A stretch of 64,000 nucleotides of DNA from Alphaproteobacteria bacterium (lineage in GTDB: Bacteria > Pseudomonadota > Alphaproteobacteria > Micavibrionales > Micavibrionaceae): contig JAUIIA010000003.1 of NCBI GenBank assembly GCA_030432025.1, forward strand, positions 186,001 through 250,000, read 5' to 3'. The position numbers and the translations under genes were made by a program. The notes below the pieces were generated by a model. The model did not search any database and had not been told where the DNA came from. It saw only the letters and a list, made by a program, of their open reading frames with translations. This document shows, piece after piece, positions 33,671 through 41,029 of this stretch. Positions within the stretch are counted from its first letter, which is position 1. The number at the start of each line of letters is the position of its first letter.

Positions 33671-34240
33671 CTAAATAGCGGCGTGATCAAGCCCGTCTGT
33701 CGAGGTATCGGGTTTCATGTTCGCGCGTAGGGCTACGGGCGAAACGGCCCGCTTGAAAAATCGGTGATCACACAGATCGGGATCAACACCCGTATCCGGT
33801 GTAAAGCTCTCGAATCCGTTTCTGTCTGCGGCTTTCAGCGATGCAGTGTTTCCTGGGGAGATGCGGACCATCGCCTCGCGGTACCCTTGTTCGCGCAAGC
33901 TTAGCAAACATCCTTCATACGGAATATTAATCAGCTTCTTGCCGCGCTGATCAGGTACAACATGCAAAGCCGTGATCTCGGGCATGTTTTCATCCATATA
34001 TTCAATCATCGCTTTGCCGACCAGCCTGTCTTCTTGTGTATCGACAAGCGCAAAAAGCTCGTAAGTATCACTGCGCAGTGTGTTTTCGGCAATGTCCCAG
34101 ACTTCTTGCTGTCGCTCGGGGCTGAGGTCTTCAAAGTCTTCGCGGTCAAGAGTGATCACCGTAATCGCCGCATCGATCTCGCCTTCCTCTAGCAGGAAGC
34201 ACTGATATCGCCCGTTATCTCTTTCGGCCATTAATCGCAT
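33671..34240 (-). CDS. GNAT-like acetyltransferase, copy B of a tandem pair
   Basis: 189 residues. A GNAT-like core is visible: LVGKAMIEYMD strand, MPEITALHVVPDQRGKKLIN with the acetyl-CoA loop pattern (Q/R-x-x-G-K/A), and SPGNTASLKAADRNGFESF near residue 145, the typical end motif. It shares the opening GRYQC-LLE and the overall plan with the gene 10 bases upstream, so the two arose by duplication. Substrate unknown. Confidence 0.7.
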   Translation of the reverse strand: MRLMAERDNGRYQCFLLEEGEIDAAITVITLDREDFEDLSPERQQEVWDIAENTLRSDTYELFALVDTQEDRLVGKAMIEYMDENMPEITALHVVPDQRGKKLINIPYEGCLLSLREQGYREAMVRISPGNTASLKAADRNGFESFTPDTGVDPDLCDHRFFKRAVSPVALRANMKPDTSTDGLDHAAI

Positions 34241-34250
34241 TGTAAAATCC

Positions 34251-34826
34251 TTATAATTCCTGTTCGGCGGAATTGTGGGTGTAATCGCGCGTAGGGCGCA
34301 TATCTGCGAGCGGCACGCGCCGTGTTAGGTGATCTGCGGACTGGTCGCCGGATTTATGTGCGCTAGGTGGGTCATAGAGGCTGAAACCGTTGCGGATTGC
34401 AGCCTTGAAACTGGCGGTATTGATCTTCTCGATTTTGCATTTCACATGCTCGAAACCCTCTTCACTTAAAAACCTCAACCGTCCTTCGTAAAGCCAGTCG
34501 ATAAGACCTTCGCCGCGGCGGTCCATCTTGATATAGGATTGCGAAATCTCGGGGCGGTCTTCTTTTTCAAGGTCGAGATTTTCAATTTTTGCGCGCCCGA
34601 CAACTTCCAGCTGCTCTTTATCCCACAGCACAAAATGCGCCTCATCCGCGGCATCGATTTTGGCACGCAGAATCTCTTCAACGCTATTTTTGGTGCCTGC
34701 TGAAATATCATAGGGAAAGTCGAGGAAATGCCCGCCGAACGCCAATTCCGCACCGACAGAGTCATCCATATCCTCAGATTCCAGCAAAAGACACTGATAA
34801 CGGCCATGATCGTACATATTACGCAT
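34251..34826 (-). CDS. GNAT-like acetyltransferase, copy A of a tandem pair
   Basis: 191 residues. Paralogue of the following gene: both begin with an (H/N)GRYQC(L/F)LLE strand, both have a PEI strand followed by a D-x-RG-E/K loop (SYIKMDRRGEGLIDWLYEGR here), and both end their fold with N-TASFKAAIRNGFSLYDPP. The acetyl-CoA loop is weaker than in typical GNATs, so activity is uncertain. It is divergent from the riboswitch-controlled thiamine genes. Confidence 0.65.
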   Translation of the reverse strand: MRNMYDHGRYQCLLLESEDMDDSVGAELAFGGHFLDFPYDISAGTKNSVEEILRAKIDAADEAHFVLWDKEQLEVVGRAKIENLDLEKEDRPEISQSYIKMDRRGEGLIDWLYEGRLRFLSEEGFEHVKCKIEKINTASFKAAIRNGFSLYDPPSAHKSGDQSADHLTRRVPLADMRPTRDYTHNSAEQEL

Positions 34827-34909
34827 ACGGATTTATAGCTAATTATTATACATAATACAAGATTTTTCGTTGTTCTTGCCTGTGCTGCCAAACTGGTCTA
34901 CATGTGGTG

Positions 34910-34990
34910 TGACCTTCGGGGTGCTTTCATGGGTGAAAGCTGAGAAATACCCGTTGAACCTGTCTGGTTAGCACCAGCGAAGGGAAAGGA
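34910..34990 (+). promoter_or_regulatory. TPP riboswitch (thi-box)
   Basis: Binds thiamine pyrophosphate and shuts off the downstream genes. The conserved parts are in order: P1 arm CCTTCG (34913-34918), GGGTGC, CTGAGA (34940-34945), ATACCCG, TGAACCTG, CTGGTTAGCACCAG, and the closing P1 arm CGAAGG (34978-34983). The ribosome binding site AAAGGAAGAAG of the next gene begins right after P1, and no terminator is seen, so control is probably at translation. Confidence 0.97.
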
Positions 34991-34997
34991 AGAAGAA

Positions 34998-37143
<2,146 letters not shown>

Positions 37144-37186
37144 GGATAAGCACACGGCTCTTGCGCTGATGAAGAAAGGAAAAGCG

Positions 37187-37945
37187 ATGGCTTACAAACA
37201 CCGCACGCTGCTCGTTTTGCTCACGCTCATTGTCATGAATGTCTTCATTCATACAGGCAACGCGCAAGAGGATGCTTACTCCGTCCGCCTCGGCAAAGCG
37301 GACGCGCCAAACGAACTGCTCATCTATTTCTCGCTGGGCTGCTCGCACTGCCTGACATATTTCGACCGCCATAATCAGGACATCAAGAGTTACGTCGATA
37401 GGGGCCTGCTGAAGGTCGAACTGGTCGAGGTGTCCGGCATGGTCGATAATGCCGAAGACAAAGCCGCCTATGAAAAGGCGATGGATTCAACCGTCCCCGT
37501 CTCGAAAGTCTATGCCTGCATCACCGAGGAAAACCCCGACATGGCGTTCGAATATATGCGCCGCTTCGTCAAATCGGCGAAAGTCGCCCTCTACGGCAGC
37601 GACCTGCCATGGAACAAATGGCCATACGCCAAAACCGAGGATTTGAACCCGTCCAGCAATTCCCCCTACTTCAACGCCGAAGCCGAAAACGTGCAGGCCG
37701 AACTCGCCAAGCTGTTCTTTCTGGATTCCGACGCAAAAGGGGAAAACTGTTTCAGCGCGGCCGATGACAAACGCCTGTCGCGCAAGGTCTTCGCCCAGTT
37801 CAAACGCTTTATCGATACGGATTACGAAGGCGTGCCCGTGGTCATCTTGAACGGCGAATACGTCCCGCCGAAAAAACACAGATCAATGTTCCTGAATATC
37901 TCGTCATGGTTCCTGAACGGGCAGGAACTGAAAGTGAAACCATGA
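37187..37945 (+). CDS. Secreted thioredoxin-fold (DsbA/DsbG-like) protein
   Basis: 252 residues from the ATG after GAAAGGAAAAGCG; this start opens a signal peptide (MAYKHRTLLVLLTLIVMNVF, cleavage near GNA-QED). An upstream in-frame ATG at 37130 would overlap thiC by 14 bases and is less likely. The redox motif CSHC lies in IYFSLGCSHCLTYFDRHN near residue 48, followed by a long helical insert and a late cis-Pro-like GVPVVILNGEYVP near 221. It may oxidise or reduce envelope proteins. Codon use is GC-rich like thiC and unlike the AT-rich region after it. Confidence 0.8.
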   Translation: MAYKHRTLLVLLTLIVMNVFIHTGNAQEDAYSVRLGKADAPNELLIYFSLGCSHCLTYFDRHNQDIKSYVDRGLLKVELVEVSGMVDNAEDKAAYEKAMDSTVPVSKVYACITEENPDMAFEYMRRFVKSAKVALYGSDLPWNKWPYAKTEDLNPSSNSPYFNAEAENVQAELAKLFFLDSDAKGENCFSAADDKRLSRKVFAQFKRFIDTDYEGVPVVILNGEYVPPKKHRSMFLNISSWFLNGQELKVKP

Positions 37946-38001
37946 CCCGACACGTGCGCGAATTCATCGCGGAACAGGAGAAAAAGGATGAGGCAGCCTA
38001 G
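37942..38001 (+). pseudogene. Duplicated 3' tail of thiC
   Basis: The frame here reads [16 protein letters not shown]-stop, against [16 protein letters not shown]-stop at the end of intact thiC (37093-37143). Codons differ at many third positions, so this is a diverged copy and not a recent tandem repeat. It follows directly behind the DsbA-like gene. It looks like the end of a second thiC allele left by recombination or insertion at the thiC 3' end. Confidence 0.75.
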
Positions 38002-38063
38002 TAGACTCTTTTTGTTCTTTTTGAAATAAAGTTTCGTTCTTTAATTTTCTTGTTTTGTTCGTG

Positions 38064-38093
38064 TTGCGTTAGCGCATTTCAATGAACTACAAT
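38064..38093 (+). promoter_or_regulatory. Candidate sigma-70-type promoter before the Cys/Lys peptide
   Basis: TTGCGT (38064-38069) and TACAAT (38088-38093) are 18 bases apart, in an AT-rich gap, about 95 bases before the small peptide gene. Plausible but not tested. Confidence 0.35.
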
Positions 38094-38188
38094 ATGCGTG
38101 GCGGGTGTCGTTCACCCTCACTCCTCACTCTTGCTGGTGCGCATTGATACAGCGCGATGCAGCTAGCATTGAGAAAGGAGGTGATAAA

Positions 38189-38296
38189 ATGGCTAAGAAG
38201 AAAGGCTGTGGTTGTAAAACCGCTCCTAGAGGCCCCAAGACTGTGAAGGTTAAGACCCACAGACGAACTAAGCCTCGAAAAAACTGTAAGAAATAG
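38189..38296 (+). CDS. Tiny Cys/Lys-rich peptide with perfect ribosome binding site
   Basis: 35 residues, starting MAKKKGCGCKTAPRGPKTVK and ending in RKNCKK. It has three Cys and about fifteen Lys/Arg. The start is fixed by AAAGGAGGTGAT, an exact complement of the 16S rRNA 3' end and by far the strongest ribosome binding site in the window. The upstream extension of the frame has no such signal. No family recognised; a nucleic-acid or metal-binding peptide is possible. Confidence 0.6.
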   Translation: MAKKKGCGCKTAPRGPKTVKVKTHRRTKPRKNCKK

Positions 38297-38422
38297 TTGG
38301 CGCTAGATCTGCAGTAGCATAGCTCAGAACGGCATCCGCTACTTACCTTATGATAGAATCATACACTTAAGAATCCGTCAAGATCAGACTATTAGAGACT
38401 TGGCAAAGCAGGAGCGGCTAAA

Positions 38423-39247
38423 ATGTCAGACGAGGATAAAAAAACACCAGAAGGGCCAAAGCTGCCTGATAAAAACCAAGGAAAAGAGATAGCAAAAGCT
38501 GTGTTGCAAGTCGGTGGAGGAATCCCTGGTATCGGAGGCTTTTTATCCGCCGCGGCTAGTGCATGGAGCGAGCAAGAGCAAGAAAATGTAAATAAAATTT
38601 TTCAACAGTGGATACATATGCTGCAAGAAGAGCTTCAAGAAAAAGGCCAAACGATCCTTGAAATTATGGCTAGGATCGACATGCAAGAAGAGAAAACGAA
38701 GGAAAGAGTAGAGTCTGACGAATACCAAAGCTTAATGAAAAAATCTTTCAGAAACTGGCCTAATATAAATTCAGAATCGAAAAGAAAGAAAATAAGAAAC
38801 TTGTTAACAAACGCTGCTGTTTCAGATTTGACATCTGACGATGTAGTCAGCCTTTTTATTGATTGGTTAAATATGTATTCTGATTTTCATTTTGAGGTTA
38901 TAGGAGAAATTTACAGGAAAGCGCCTATTAGCAGGGGAGAAATCTGGGATAACTTAGGTAGAAAAAAAGCCGCTGAAAATTCGGCGGAAGCAGACCTTTA
39001 TAAAATGTTGATTAGAGATTTAAGTGTCGGGAGTGTGATTAGGCAGCAAAGAGAAGTTGATGCGTATGGGAATTTTATTCAAAAGCGAAGGCCGCCATCT
39101 AGAAAAAGTTCTGGCCCCAAACCAATGAAGTCTGCATTTGATTATGAAGAAAAATATGAACTAACAGGACTTGGCCAACAATTCGTGCATTATGCCATGA
39201 CTGAAATCACACCTCGTATTGAATTTCAAAACAATAAGGCTGCTTAA
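38423..39247 (+). CDS. Accessory protein of unknown function in AT-rich segment
   Basis: 274 residues. Base composition is clearly more AT-rich than its neighbours, with codons such as ATA, AGA and TTA. The N-terminus has a glycine-rich hydrophobic helix (VLQVGGGIPGIGGFLSAAAS, residues 28-47), then long charged helices (MLQEELQEKGQTILEIMARI), and the last 100 residues look like a winged-helix-type domain ending KYELTGLGQQFVHYAM. The layout, together with its location, recalls small defence or phage-related proteins, but no family was identified. The stop directly abuts the ATG of the PhnA-like gene. Confidence 0.7.
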   Translation: MSDEDKKTPEGPKLPDKNQGKEIAKAVLQVGGGIPGIGGFLSAAASAWSEQEQENVNKIFQQWIHMLQEELQEKGQTILEIMARIDMQEEKTKERVESDEYQSLMKKSFRNWPNINSESKRKKIRNLLTNAAVSDLTSDDVVSLFIDWLNMYSDFHFEVIGEIYRKAPISRGEIWDNLGRKKAAENSAEADLYKMLIRDLSVGSVIRQQREVDAYGNFIQKRRPPSRKSSGPKPMKSAFDYEEKYELTGLGQQFVHYAMTEITPRIEFQNNKAA

Positions 39248-39592
39248 ATGACCACAGAACTTCCCCCATGTCCGAAATGTGAATCCCCCTATACCTATGA
39301 GGACGGGCCGTTGCTCGTCTGTCCCGAATGCGCGCATGAATGGAGCGCGACCGAGGAGGAGGGCGAGACGATCCGTGATTCAGTCGGCAATGAATTGAAA
39401 GACGGCGATTCCGTCACCATTGCCAAGGACCTCAAAGTCGGCAATAAATCCATCAAGGTCGGCACGAAGGTCAAAAACATTCGTATCCTGCCTCGCGATC
39501 AATGGATCGGCGATCACGACATCGACGCCAAAGTCCCCGGCTTCGGGCCGATGGGTTTGAAGTCTTCCGTGGTGAAGAAAATCTTCGACTAA
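39248..39592 (+). CDS. PhnA/YjdM-type zinc-ribbon protein
   Basis: 114 residues matching E. coli YjdM (PhnA). The zinc ribbon has [20 protein letters not shown] with a following Cys, then the strongly conserved [14 protein letters not shown] and [10 protein letters not shown], and a [14 protein letters not shown] end. Despite the old name it is not needed for phosphonate use; its function is unclear. The ATG sits directly after the stop of the AT-rich gene and has no evident ribosome binding site of its own. Confidence 0.9.
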
Positions 39593-39698
39593 ACACACAC
39601 ATCAGTATAAAAGGCCCTTTAAGTGATGCGAACAAAGCGGTGCTTTGCTTCGCCGCAGTAAAAAAATTCGTTAAAAAAATTTTCGATTAAGGACAAGT

Positions 39699-39932
39699 AT
39701 GAACGAAGAAGAGCTGGATACGCTGATCCTCGGGGTCATGGATGAGGAATGGACGAAAATCGCCGTCATTATCTCGAAGGTTTATGACGCGGTTGACGAA
39801 GCCCACCAAACCAAAACATTGGGGCAAGAGATCGCACAGCGCATCTACATCCTCGTCGACAACGGCGCTCTGCATTGTCAGGGCAATATGCGCCGCTGGC
39901 GTGACGCGGATGTGCGGCTGCCACAAAGCTGA
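39699..39932 (+). CDS. Small DUF3658-like protein
   Basis: 77 residues. MNEEELDTLILGVMDEEWTK is a helix, and ALHCQGNMRRWRDADVRLP at the end matches the RW-R-x-x-x-V-R-L closing pattern seen in DUF3658 domains. No known function. AAGGACAAGT precedes the ATG. Confidence 0.6.
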   Translation: MNEEELDTLILGVMDEEWTKIAVIISKVYDAVDEAHQTKTLGQEIAQRIYILVDNGALHCQGNMRRWRDADVRLPQS

Positions 39933-39977
39933 CCTTCGCCCTTGACGATATCCCGAAAATCGGTCGGAATAGAGGGC

Positions 39978-40343
39978 ATGAAAACGATTTTTCAGCTATC
40001 ACTTCTGTTGACCGTAATGCTCGGCGCACCTGCGCATGCCGATATGTTCGAAGAAACCGAAGAATCCTATTACACCCGCCAGATGCGCTCCTGCCTTTAT
40101 AAAAAGGAGCGCACGAGTGTCTTTGACCTCTTCCGCGCCACCCGCCCCGTCTATATGGATGATTGCTGCGCGCAAAGTGTGTACGCGATGCAAAAGGCGG
40201 ATGCCAAATGGATACACCCCGACAAGGATTGTCCGGAAGGGAAAGTGAAGGCACGGCTGCAATGTGAAACGTCGAAAGACTGGTGCATGTCCGTCGGCAA
40301 CGGCGCTACGCCATCCCGTCAGAATGCTCCAAAGGGTGACTAG
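39978..40343 (+). CDS. Small secreted Cys-rich protein
   Basis: 121 residues from the ATG that opens a signal peptide (MKTIFQLSLLLTVMLGA, cleavage near AHA-DMF). The mature part has about six Cys (RSCLYKKE, DDCCAQSV, DCPEGK, LQCETSKDWCMS), probably paired in the periplasm. No family recognised. Its 3' end overlaps the convergent RNase H-like gene by 38 bases. Confidence 0.65.
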   Translation: MKTIFQLSLLLTVMLGAPAHADMFEETEESYYTRQMRSCLYKKERTSVFDLFRATRPVYMDDCCAQSVYAMQKADAKWIHPDKDCPEGKVKARLQCETSKDWCMSVGNGATPSRQNAPKGD

Positions 40344-40890
40344 GCTCATGTTCATGCGGCTTGTTGCCTGCTGAACGGATGACCGCTTCTATACGCGCCA
40401 TATCACCGCGAGCGGCGGCCTTGGCGAATTGATCAGCCAGTGGAATTTTTCCTTGCCCGCGCGTCACCCTGTCGACCGCCATAGTCGGGTGGGCTGCTAC
40501 GCCGCTGATCAAGGCTTCACGTAAATTCTGCGGGTAGGCCTCATTAATACCCTTACCGCCGCGAATATCCATGATCGCGCCTTTTACGGCCGGACAATCG
40601 GTGGTTAACCGACCGATACTGCCCGGTGACAGGGCGTTCAATGTTTTAGCCGCCGCCCAAAGCTCGGCAAAATCGCTGATCGGAATAGGCAGGTGATTGA
40701 ACTCGAAACTCATGGTCCGCTGCAGCTTTCCATCTGAGTTACAGATAATAGCCGCTCCGCCCGCGACACCTTCACCGTCCAGCAACGAGCCGTCCGTCCA
40801 GACTTCTAAAAGTCCCTGACGCTTATTCTGCGCTTGCTGGCGTTTGCTGATTTTGCCTTTATTGTGCTTTTTTCCCATGTGGTTAGACAT
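40306..40890 (-). CDS. RNase H-like fold protein
   Basis: 194 residues. A basic N-terminus (MGKKHNKGKISKRQQAQNKR) is followed by an RNase HI-type core: LEVWTDGSLLDG with the first Asp, FAELWAAAKTLNAL with the Glu, LTTDCPAVKGAI with the second Asp, and LADQFAKAAARG near residue 165 with the last Asp, so the D-E-D-D set is complete. Such stand-alone proteins act on RNA/DNA hybrids. Starts at 40890 or 40878 are both possible; the frame is open far upstream but without family features. Confidence 0.75.
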   Translation of the reverse strand: MSNHMGKKHNKGKISKRQQAQNKRQGLLEVWTDGSLLDGEGVAGGAAIICNSDGKLQRTMSFEFNHLPIPISDFAELWAAAKTLNALSPGSIGRLTTDCPAVKGAIMDIRGGKGINEAYPQNLREALISGVAAHPTMAVDRVTRGQGKIPLADQFAKAAARGDMARIEAVIRSAGNKPHEHEPSHPLEHSDGMA

Positions 40891-40934
40891 AATGTATGAG
40901 GCCGCAGAAAGGCAAGAAAAATACGGCGCTTTTT

Positions 40935-40962
40935 TTGATTTTCGAAACGAATATGCTATATC
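40935..40962 (+). promoter_or_regulatory. Candidate promoter of the LysE-type gene
   Basis: TTGATT (40935-40940) and TATATC (40957-40962) are 16 bases apart, just before the leader hairpin and about 70 bases before the ATG of the transporter gene. It may overlap the promoter of the divergent RNase H-like gene. Confidence 0.4.
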
Positions 40963-40974
40963 AGTATTAATAAC

Positions 40975-40995
40975 CGGACCCGGCGAGAGGGTCCG
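40975..40995 (+). promoter_or_regulatory. Hairpin in the leader of the LysE-type gene
   Basis: CGGACCC and GGGTCCG form a perfect seven-pair stem around the loop GGCGAGA, followed by TTTGTG. It lies 35 bases before the ATG. It may be a weak attenuator or an mRNA-stabilising structure; there is no long U-run. Confidence 0.45.
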
Positions 40996-41029
40996 TTTGT
41001 GTCTCAACATACAATTGAAAGTTTGAATT

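Follow-up and report, generated by a model that had tools for sequence, protein, structure and literature searches.

A second thiC tail behind a DsbA-like gene suggests gene addition at the thiC 3' end without an integrase

The end of thiC, a vitamin B1 (thiamine) gene, occurs twice in a contig of an alphaproteobacterium of the family Micavibrionaceae (GCA_030432025.1, JAUIIA010000003.1, positions 186,001 to 250,000), with a DsbA-like gene between the two copies. How the second copy and the gene came to lie there was the question raised by this locus. The whole stretch of 64,000 nucleotides, from a genome of 2.44 Mb, is called the window below, and positions are counted from its first letter. 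G004 is another genome of the family. The features of the locus were as follows.

34907..35002, + strand, TPP riboswitch (Rfam RF00059, 68.3 bits, E 2.9e-12), upstream of the CHMI-thiC genes
35371..37143, + strand, thiC, core gene and homology anchor (Pfam ThiC_Rad_SAM, E 1.4e-187)
37048..37954 (limits approximate), + strand, putative tract of recent exchange with the G004 lineage, comprising the thiC end and the dsbA-like gene
37094..37143, + strand, T1, the first thiC tail, which is the functional thiC 3' end
37130..37945, + strand, DsbA-like gene, inserted gene 1 (Pfam Thioredoxin_4, E 2.3e-10)
37952..38001, + strand, T2, the second thiC tail, 84% to T1
38189..38296, + strand, 35-aa ORF behind T2, basic and Cys-containing, with Shine-Dalgarno-like AAAGGAGG
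38423..39247, + strand, 274-aa ORF, GC 39%, cargo behind T2, no Pfam family
39248..39592, + strand, phnA/yjdM, right-hand flank of the hotspot (Pfam YjdM, E 4.5e-24)
39670..39690, + strand, short copy of the phnA 3' end after a 77-nt spacer with a hairpin, missing in G004

The TPP riboswitch was the sole match in an Rfam scan of 34000-41000, and a CHMI-like gene (5-carboxymethyl-2-hydroxymuconate isomerase; Pfam CHMI) lay between it and thiC at 34998-35354. The DsbA-like gene was the only gene between T1 and T2. It scored 41.3 bits for Thioredoxin_4 (curated cut-off 23.2), and a CSHC (CxxC motif) was read in its sequence; its longest frame overlapped the thiC stop, and another possible ATG start was located at about 37188. 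Behind T2, the 35-aa ORF was rich in Cys and Lys, had a strong Shine-Dalgarno-like sequence, and gave no PHROG family match. An unrelated 273-aa ORF stood in place of the 274-aa ORF in G004. At the right-hand flank, 21 nt of the phnA 3' end (39572-39592) were repeated at 39670-39690, and the hairpin in the spacer (39628-39653) was single in the genome. G004 had neither the spacer nor the copy, and the repeat is possibly the right-hand scar of an exchange.

Alignment confirmed the recurrence of the thiC 3' end that a preliminary description of this DNA had reported: 37094-37142 matched 37952-38000 at 84% without gaps over 49 nt, at a spacing of 858 nt. The gapped alignment of T1 and T2 covered 66 columns at 77% (E 3e-10; 6 kb downstream searched), and chance was therefore excluded. 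Both tails stop at the same place, T1 with TAA and T2 with TAG, and comparison of the two encoded 15-residue peptides showed that most of the differences were silent, again as described before. The copy, earlier placed at 37942-38001, is real, but its clearly alignable start lies at about 37952 and not at 37942. A scan of 51 window ORFs for copies of their 3' ends (E<=1e-6, up to 3 kb downstream) gave a hit for thiC alone. The longest identical run between T1 and T2 measured 14 nt in the window; in G004 it measured 12 nt and lay elsewhere. The best match of the window T2 was G003 (86%); its identity with its own thiC was 82%.

Two other accounts of T2 were rejected. T2 might be a working mini-ORF, coupled to dsbA by an ATGA overlap, but the T2 of G004 lacked conserved thiC residues (AREVV) and looks like decay. 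Misassembly was discounted in view of the 16% difference between T1 and T2 and of the cases in G323, G540, and G558 described below, which sit on contigs several Mb long.

A close copy of the DsbA-like gene was found in two of the 142 genomes of the order, namely that of the window and G004, while 11 others gave partial, weak matches (E 8e-8 to 7e-4). The window was compared with a 49-kb contig of G004, in which 41 window ORFs were matched, 38 of them besides thiC, the dsbA-like gene, and phnA. The pS was 0.51-0.79 in 31 of these 38 other alignable ORFs; the remaining seven (83-161 aa) had lower values, and three of them (34898, 39769, and 41251) are antisense to genes named here. The pS was 0.279 for thiC, 0.198 for phnA, and 0.089 for the dsbA-like gene, and it was likewise low for the orf80 gene behind phnA (0.211). 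Nucleotide identity to G004 was 97.9% for the dsbA-like gene, 95.6% for phnA, and 92.7% for thiC, against at most 88.2% for the other alignable ORFs.

The identity between the window and G004 changed in a step on each side of the gene. The left edge was inside thiC: mismatches amounted to 13-18% at -300 to -150, fell to 4-6% over the final 150 nt, and were 0-3% in the gene. Differences were dense through 37047 (the last dense group at 37041-37047), numbered two in 37048-37302, and came back from 37955; identity of about 98% began some 95 nt before the thiC stop and ran through the dsbA-like gene, and the 799 nt behind thiC were 97.9% alike. At the right edge, T2 was 83.7% identical, with nine differences in 37955-38001, apparently no more than modestly above the rate at synonymous sites of dsbA (16/179). 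Behind T2, the window and G004 did not align until phnA. The dS of the window thiC was 0.35 against G004, whereas comparison with 8 other members of the family gave values above 1 or saturation; thiC is therefore not a gene of generally low divergence. Excess recombination in the flanking core genes thiC and phnA was seen in the window-G004 pair, the one pair compared for it; the unusual similarity of this pair extends to the body of thiC and to phnA, and several exchanges may overlap. Recombination with a foreign thiC carrying an extra gene, as proposed in the preliminary description, predicts exactly such a pattern of a thiC end and dsbA-like gene about 98% identical and a diverged T2, and it gains support from this block between otherwise diverged species.

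In the Micavibrio family, thiC was found in 37 of 104 genomes, and 34 thiC 3' ends were read, including that of the window (G025, G033, and G101 were left out; the thiC 3' end was absent from locus L039 of G010a). Second tails were present at three of the 34 loci, in the window, G004, and G021. An old and stable arrangement, with both tails and the gene in all relatives, had been named beforehand as the finding that would speak against an insertion; among the 34 family loci, only G004 had the gene and T2 in common with the window, so that this counter-evidence did not appear. G021 had two second tails, one of them fused behind the first codons of phnA, and therefore pieces arrived more than once there. 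The fusion was located about 1060-1172 nt behind the thiC stop (L035), where the start of phnA was joined in frame to a thiC tail at the PhnA-like CPQC, apparently via a shared TGCGGC. Downstream of thiC, phnA was found in 17 of the 34 loci, and directly so in G011, 18 nt past the thiC stop.

The content behind thiC varied from genome to genome across the 34 family loci, and the same flanking core genes with different cargo were found in these loci and likewise behind thiC in another alphaproteobacterial genus, g216. When the 600 nt behind thiC were compared with its final 900 nt, GC was lower by at least 0.08 in 26 of 33 family loci; among control genes in the same family stretches, 19 of 105 gave such a drop. 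A weak blastn match behind thiC in G012 (66.7%, E 0.006) was rejected as evidence of a tail copy.

A search across the class, in which 140 of 385 genomes gave a match, led to G323, in which a 249-nt thiC tail copy at 92% lay behind a 155-aa gene. In g216, 37 of 41 genomes had a thiC match, and tail copies were found at 8 of the 37 loci read, including two loci with short flanks (G536, 162 nt; G556, 762 nt) and one with partial thiC (G534). The 155-aa gene was common to G323, G540, G557, and G558 at 97.9-99.3%. Divergence among the thiC genes of these four was 8-16% at -150 to -100 and 12-30% at -100 to -50, and it dropped to 0-4% over the final 50 nt, where conserved sequence within T1 makes the left edge less exact in g216. 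Their T2 copies were 86.5-92.7% alike, near-identical at the start and diverging further in. The genes behind T2 differed, with nothing common in the next 1200 nt except for a 205-nt stretch about 1 kb on, shared by G540 and G557. The pairs with G558 had one bin of 11.7%, at the end of the compared stretch, which was taken for an alignment edge, and G557 had extra sequence between gene 1 and T2.

G553 and G530 had another gene in common at 96.3% identity, which we take to be SnoaL-like, with T2 at 90%, different genes behind, and thiC differences of 24-26% at -150 to -50. In both genomes the reading frame of this gene ran on into the thiC tail as a fusion, whereas its relatives in G539 and G543 stop short of the tail. 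Three different genes share the same step, in which the inserted gene is near-identical, the flanking thiC ends are diverged, and the cargo behind is different. The T2 of G530 was 67% identical to its own thiC and 87% to that of G553, and the T2 of G524 was 76% identical to its own thiC and 88% to that of G536; these affinities can also be read as an imported T2 plus cargo. The GC drop of at least 0.08 behind thiC was found at 22 of 36 g216 loci versus 1 of 23 control genes. A weak match in G527 (60%) was rejected as tail copy evidence.

Named thiC loci numbered 80, of which 79 had usable downstream DNA (L076 had merely 7 nt downstream of thiC), and two credible tail copies were found among them. 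One was a 109-nt copy at 81% in a Sphingomonadales bacterium MAG (L064), and the other an 85-nt copy at 84% in a MAG titled Phycisphaera mikurensis (L074), preceded by a gene pair that is presumably MNT/HEPN-like. Weak blastn matches in L082 and L128 were rejected because they lay on the opposite strand or within coding sequence of another kind, and a match in G445 was merely a contig end.

Enrichment was assessed in the Micavibrio-family, g216, and window loci. Copies of the 3' end within 3 kb (E<=1e-6) were found for 10 of 67 thiC genes and, with a minimum length of 150 aa, for 4 of 475 other ORFs (Fisher p 3e-7), counts in which the 67 come from a separate table, related species are entered separately, and some non-thiC ORFs are perhaps spurious. 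The contrast was weaker in the named loci, with 2 thiC copies (79 usable loci) versus 7 matches for other ORFs, 899 ORFs having been tested there, so the enrichment does not hold everywhere. Genes besides thiC that were followed by a copy of their own 3' end were seen in L154 (G115), L142 (G098), and L215 (G541) and in the named loci L061, L096, L114, and L133; some of these may be tandem paralogues and others may be the same kind of scar. The 274-aa ORF of the window had a 63% relative in G031, a genome that gave no thiC match. This relative (L172, 3652-4467) directly adjoined the 3' end of a gene that we assume to be uvrA-like, and another core-gene end may serve as a docking place.

From the inserts, 32 proteins were selected and scanned with Pfam. 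Fifteen of them matched a family above the curated cut-off, and 17, including the 274-aa ORF of the window, did not. The families were Thioredoxin_4, DUF5677, Peptidase_M78, SocA_Panacea, DUF488, FRG, DarT, PIN_12, Zeta_toxin, PNP_UDP_1, Fic, putAbiC, HNH_5, AAA_16, and SF0329, several of which we take to be linked to toxins or phage defence, and PADLOC further added DarG, AbiP, and PDC-M36A among the cargo. The DsbA-like protein had no PADLOC match, no relatives in viral contigs, and no match in PHROGs; the 274-aa ORF had a weak PADLOC match (E 0.0059). None of the window cargo fell into a known defence family, and the dsbA-like gene does not look like a defence gene. A resemblance of the 274-aa ORF to the cargo of G529 was not borne out. 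Pfam found no integrase or transposase family among the 32 selected proteins, and a transposase-like ORF about 2.6 kb behind thiC was read by eye in G553. The GC content of the cargo behind T2 was 39% in the window and 35% in G004, and that of the dsbA-like gene was 52-53%. The space behind thiC is one of rapid turnover, occupied mostly by AT-rich genes, several of which are toxin- or defence-like.

As far as the compared sequences tell, the dsbA-like gene most likely came from another species by ordinary recombination at the thiC end. There is good reason to regard it as a cassette bounded by thiC tails, inserted into thiC by double homologous recombination with no integrase of its own. One crossover would have fallen within about the last 100 nt of thiC, and the other in or beside T2. 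The recipient would have gained a new thiC end and the extra gene, and its old thiC end with the resident cargo would have been pushed downstream as T2. T2 is probably such a displaced older thiC end, and the unrelated cargo behind it (38423-39247) would have come along with it. A rare illegitimate join would first have linked dsbA to a thiC tail, once, and ordinary recombination could afterwards spread the cassette to any single-tail thiC locus while the resident cargo is kept; the same appears to happen to other genes behind thiC in other lineages. The sequences themselves show the tails, the identity steps, the hotspot, and its recurrence, so that foreign genes have docked at the thiC end repeatedly in several bacterial lineages; the double crossover and the first illegitimate join are deduced from them. 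The DNA might have been delivered by transformation, by gene transfer agents, or by another route, and the cargo might be of benefit. The 50-nt T2 is too short to be placed by descent, and of the window and G004 either may have received the block. The identical run of at most 14 nt between T1 and T2 in the window is short for RecA. Candidate short joints, read by eye, were CCATGA at the dsbA end and TGCGGC at the phnA-thiC fusion of G021.

The events might also have taken place in the reverse order, the gene beside thiC being the resident and T2 with its AT-rich cargo being imported on a donor fragment of thiC end, cargo, and phnA, through phnA homology on the right and, on the left, a join at microhomology, as in homology-facilitated illegitimate recombination. 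The cargo behind T2 does look the most foreign by its GC content, a phnA-thiC-tail fusion is in frame in G021, a resident-type gene is fused to T2 in G530 and G553, and the T2 copies of G530 and G524 are closer to the thiC of other species than to their own. This order leaves unexplained, however, why gene 1 is 96-99% identical while the adjacent thiC ends are 12-30% different, with the edge inside thiC. It is considered unlikely for the exchanges seen here, and it is probably how the first gene-tail joints arose.

A site-specific integrative element with the thiC 3' end as its attachment site, and with its integrase lost or acting in trans, would agree with the 3'-end target, the restoration of the gene by the incoming end, the direct repeats on both sides, and the serial stacking in G021. 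The copies, however, range in length from some 46-50 nt up to some 250 nt, no constant att core was found (the longest T1/T2 identical runs being the 14 and 12 nt given above), and no recombinase was found among the 32 scanned proteins, which makes such an element very improbable. Local duplication of the thiC end with later divergence and no transfer is scarcely credible: although the thiC tails most similar to T2 are found in its own genus, the intervening gene is close in two diverged species only (97.9%), most differences between the tails are silent, neither T2 copy equals either of the T1 copies, and the identity step contradicts it. We therefore keep to insertion of a tail-bounded cassette by homologous recombination and read the thiC end as an integrase-free hotspot, at which a gene between two tails is added without loss of the resident cargo.

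In integrative elements and islands at gene 3' ends, the incoming end restores the gene and direct repeats are formed; the thiC spot differs from them in that neither an integrase nor a fixed core was found. Hotspots without mobile elements and with recombination in the flanking core genes have been described (2017, PMC5635113). In the part of that paper available to us, they share with thiC the fast cargo turnover between core genes, the lack of a visible integrase, and the excess of flanking recombination, but 3'-end copies are not mentioned there, whereas at thiC partial core-gene copies lie between cargoes and the exchange runs between diverged species. For the T6SS of Vibrio cholerae, stepwise insertion of effector-immunity modules by homology-facilitated illegitimate recombination was proposed (Kirchberger et al. 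2017, PMC5361080). The accessible sections of that paper describe conserved gene anchors, an old 3' part and cargo shifted back, and serial arrays, as at thiC; a gene for toxin delivery serves as the anchor in that system, and its own end is the variable cargo, whereas here the anchor is a thiamine gene whose function is kept. Displacement of rhs C-termini, as cited in those sections (PMC5361080), likewise leaves strings of displaced 3' ends, in toxin genes rather than in a housekeeping enzyme. Homology-assisted illegitimate recombination was also proposed for small variable segments of bacterial genomes (PMC2884548), which, in the portion of that paper at hand, are small inserts between conserved genes, some with direct repeats. 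Those repeats are mostly less than 30 bp and not tied to one gene, unlike the repeats at thiC, which are the thiC end and come with evidence of interspecies exchange.

No description of thiC as such an anchor was found in the open-licence literature. With the types of hotspot and displacement known and the thiC anchor not found described, the thiC case is a variant on known kinds. To our knowledge, little is understood of how solitary defence and toxin genes pass from one species to another when no phage, plasmid, or integrase is involved. We put forward only tentatively that two-tail thiC genes form a class of integrase-free, self-adding cassettes, with the thiC 3' end as a widespread docking site and the tails as a record of the order of arrival. 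If this is true, built-in homology arms would let genes enter the single-tail thiC of other species and stack on the resident cargo, and the thiC 3' end, conserved at the DNA level across phyla, would be a dock for solitary toxin and defence genes. The duplicated thiC end would then mark each arrival and supply the homology for the next. The locus permits a direct laboratory test, and the thiC tails are a searchable signature that would reveal undescribed defence genes behind thiC.
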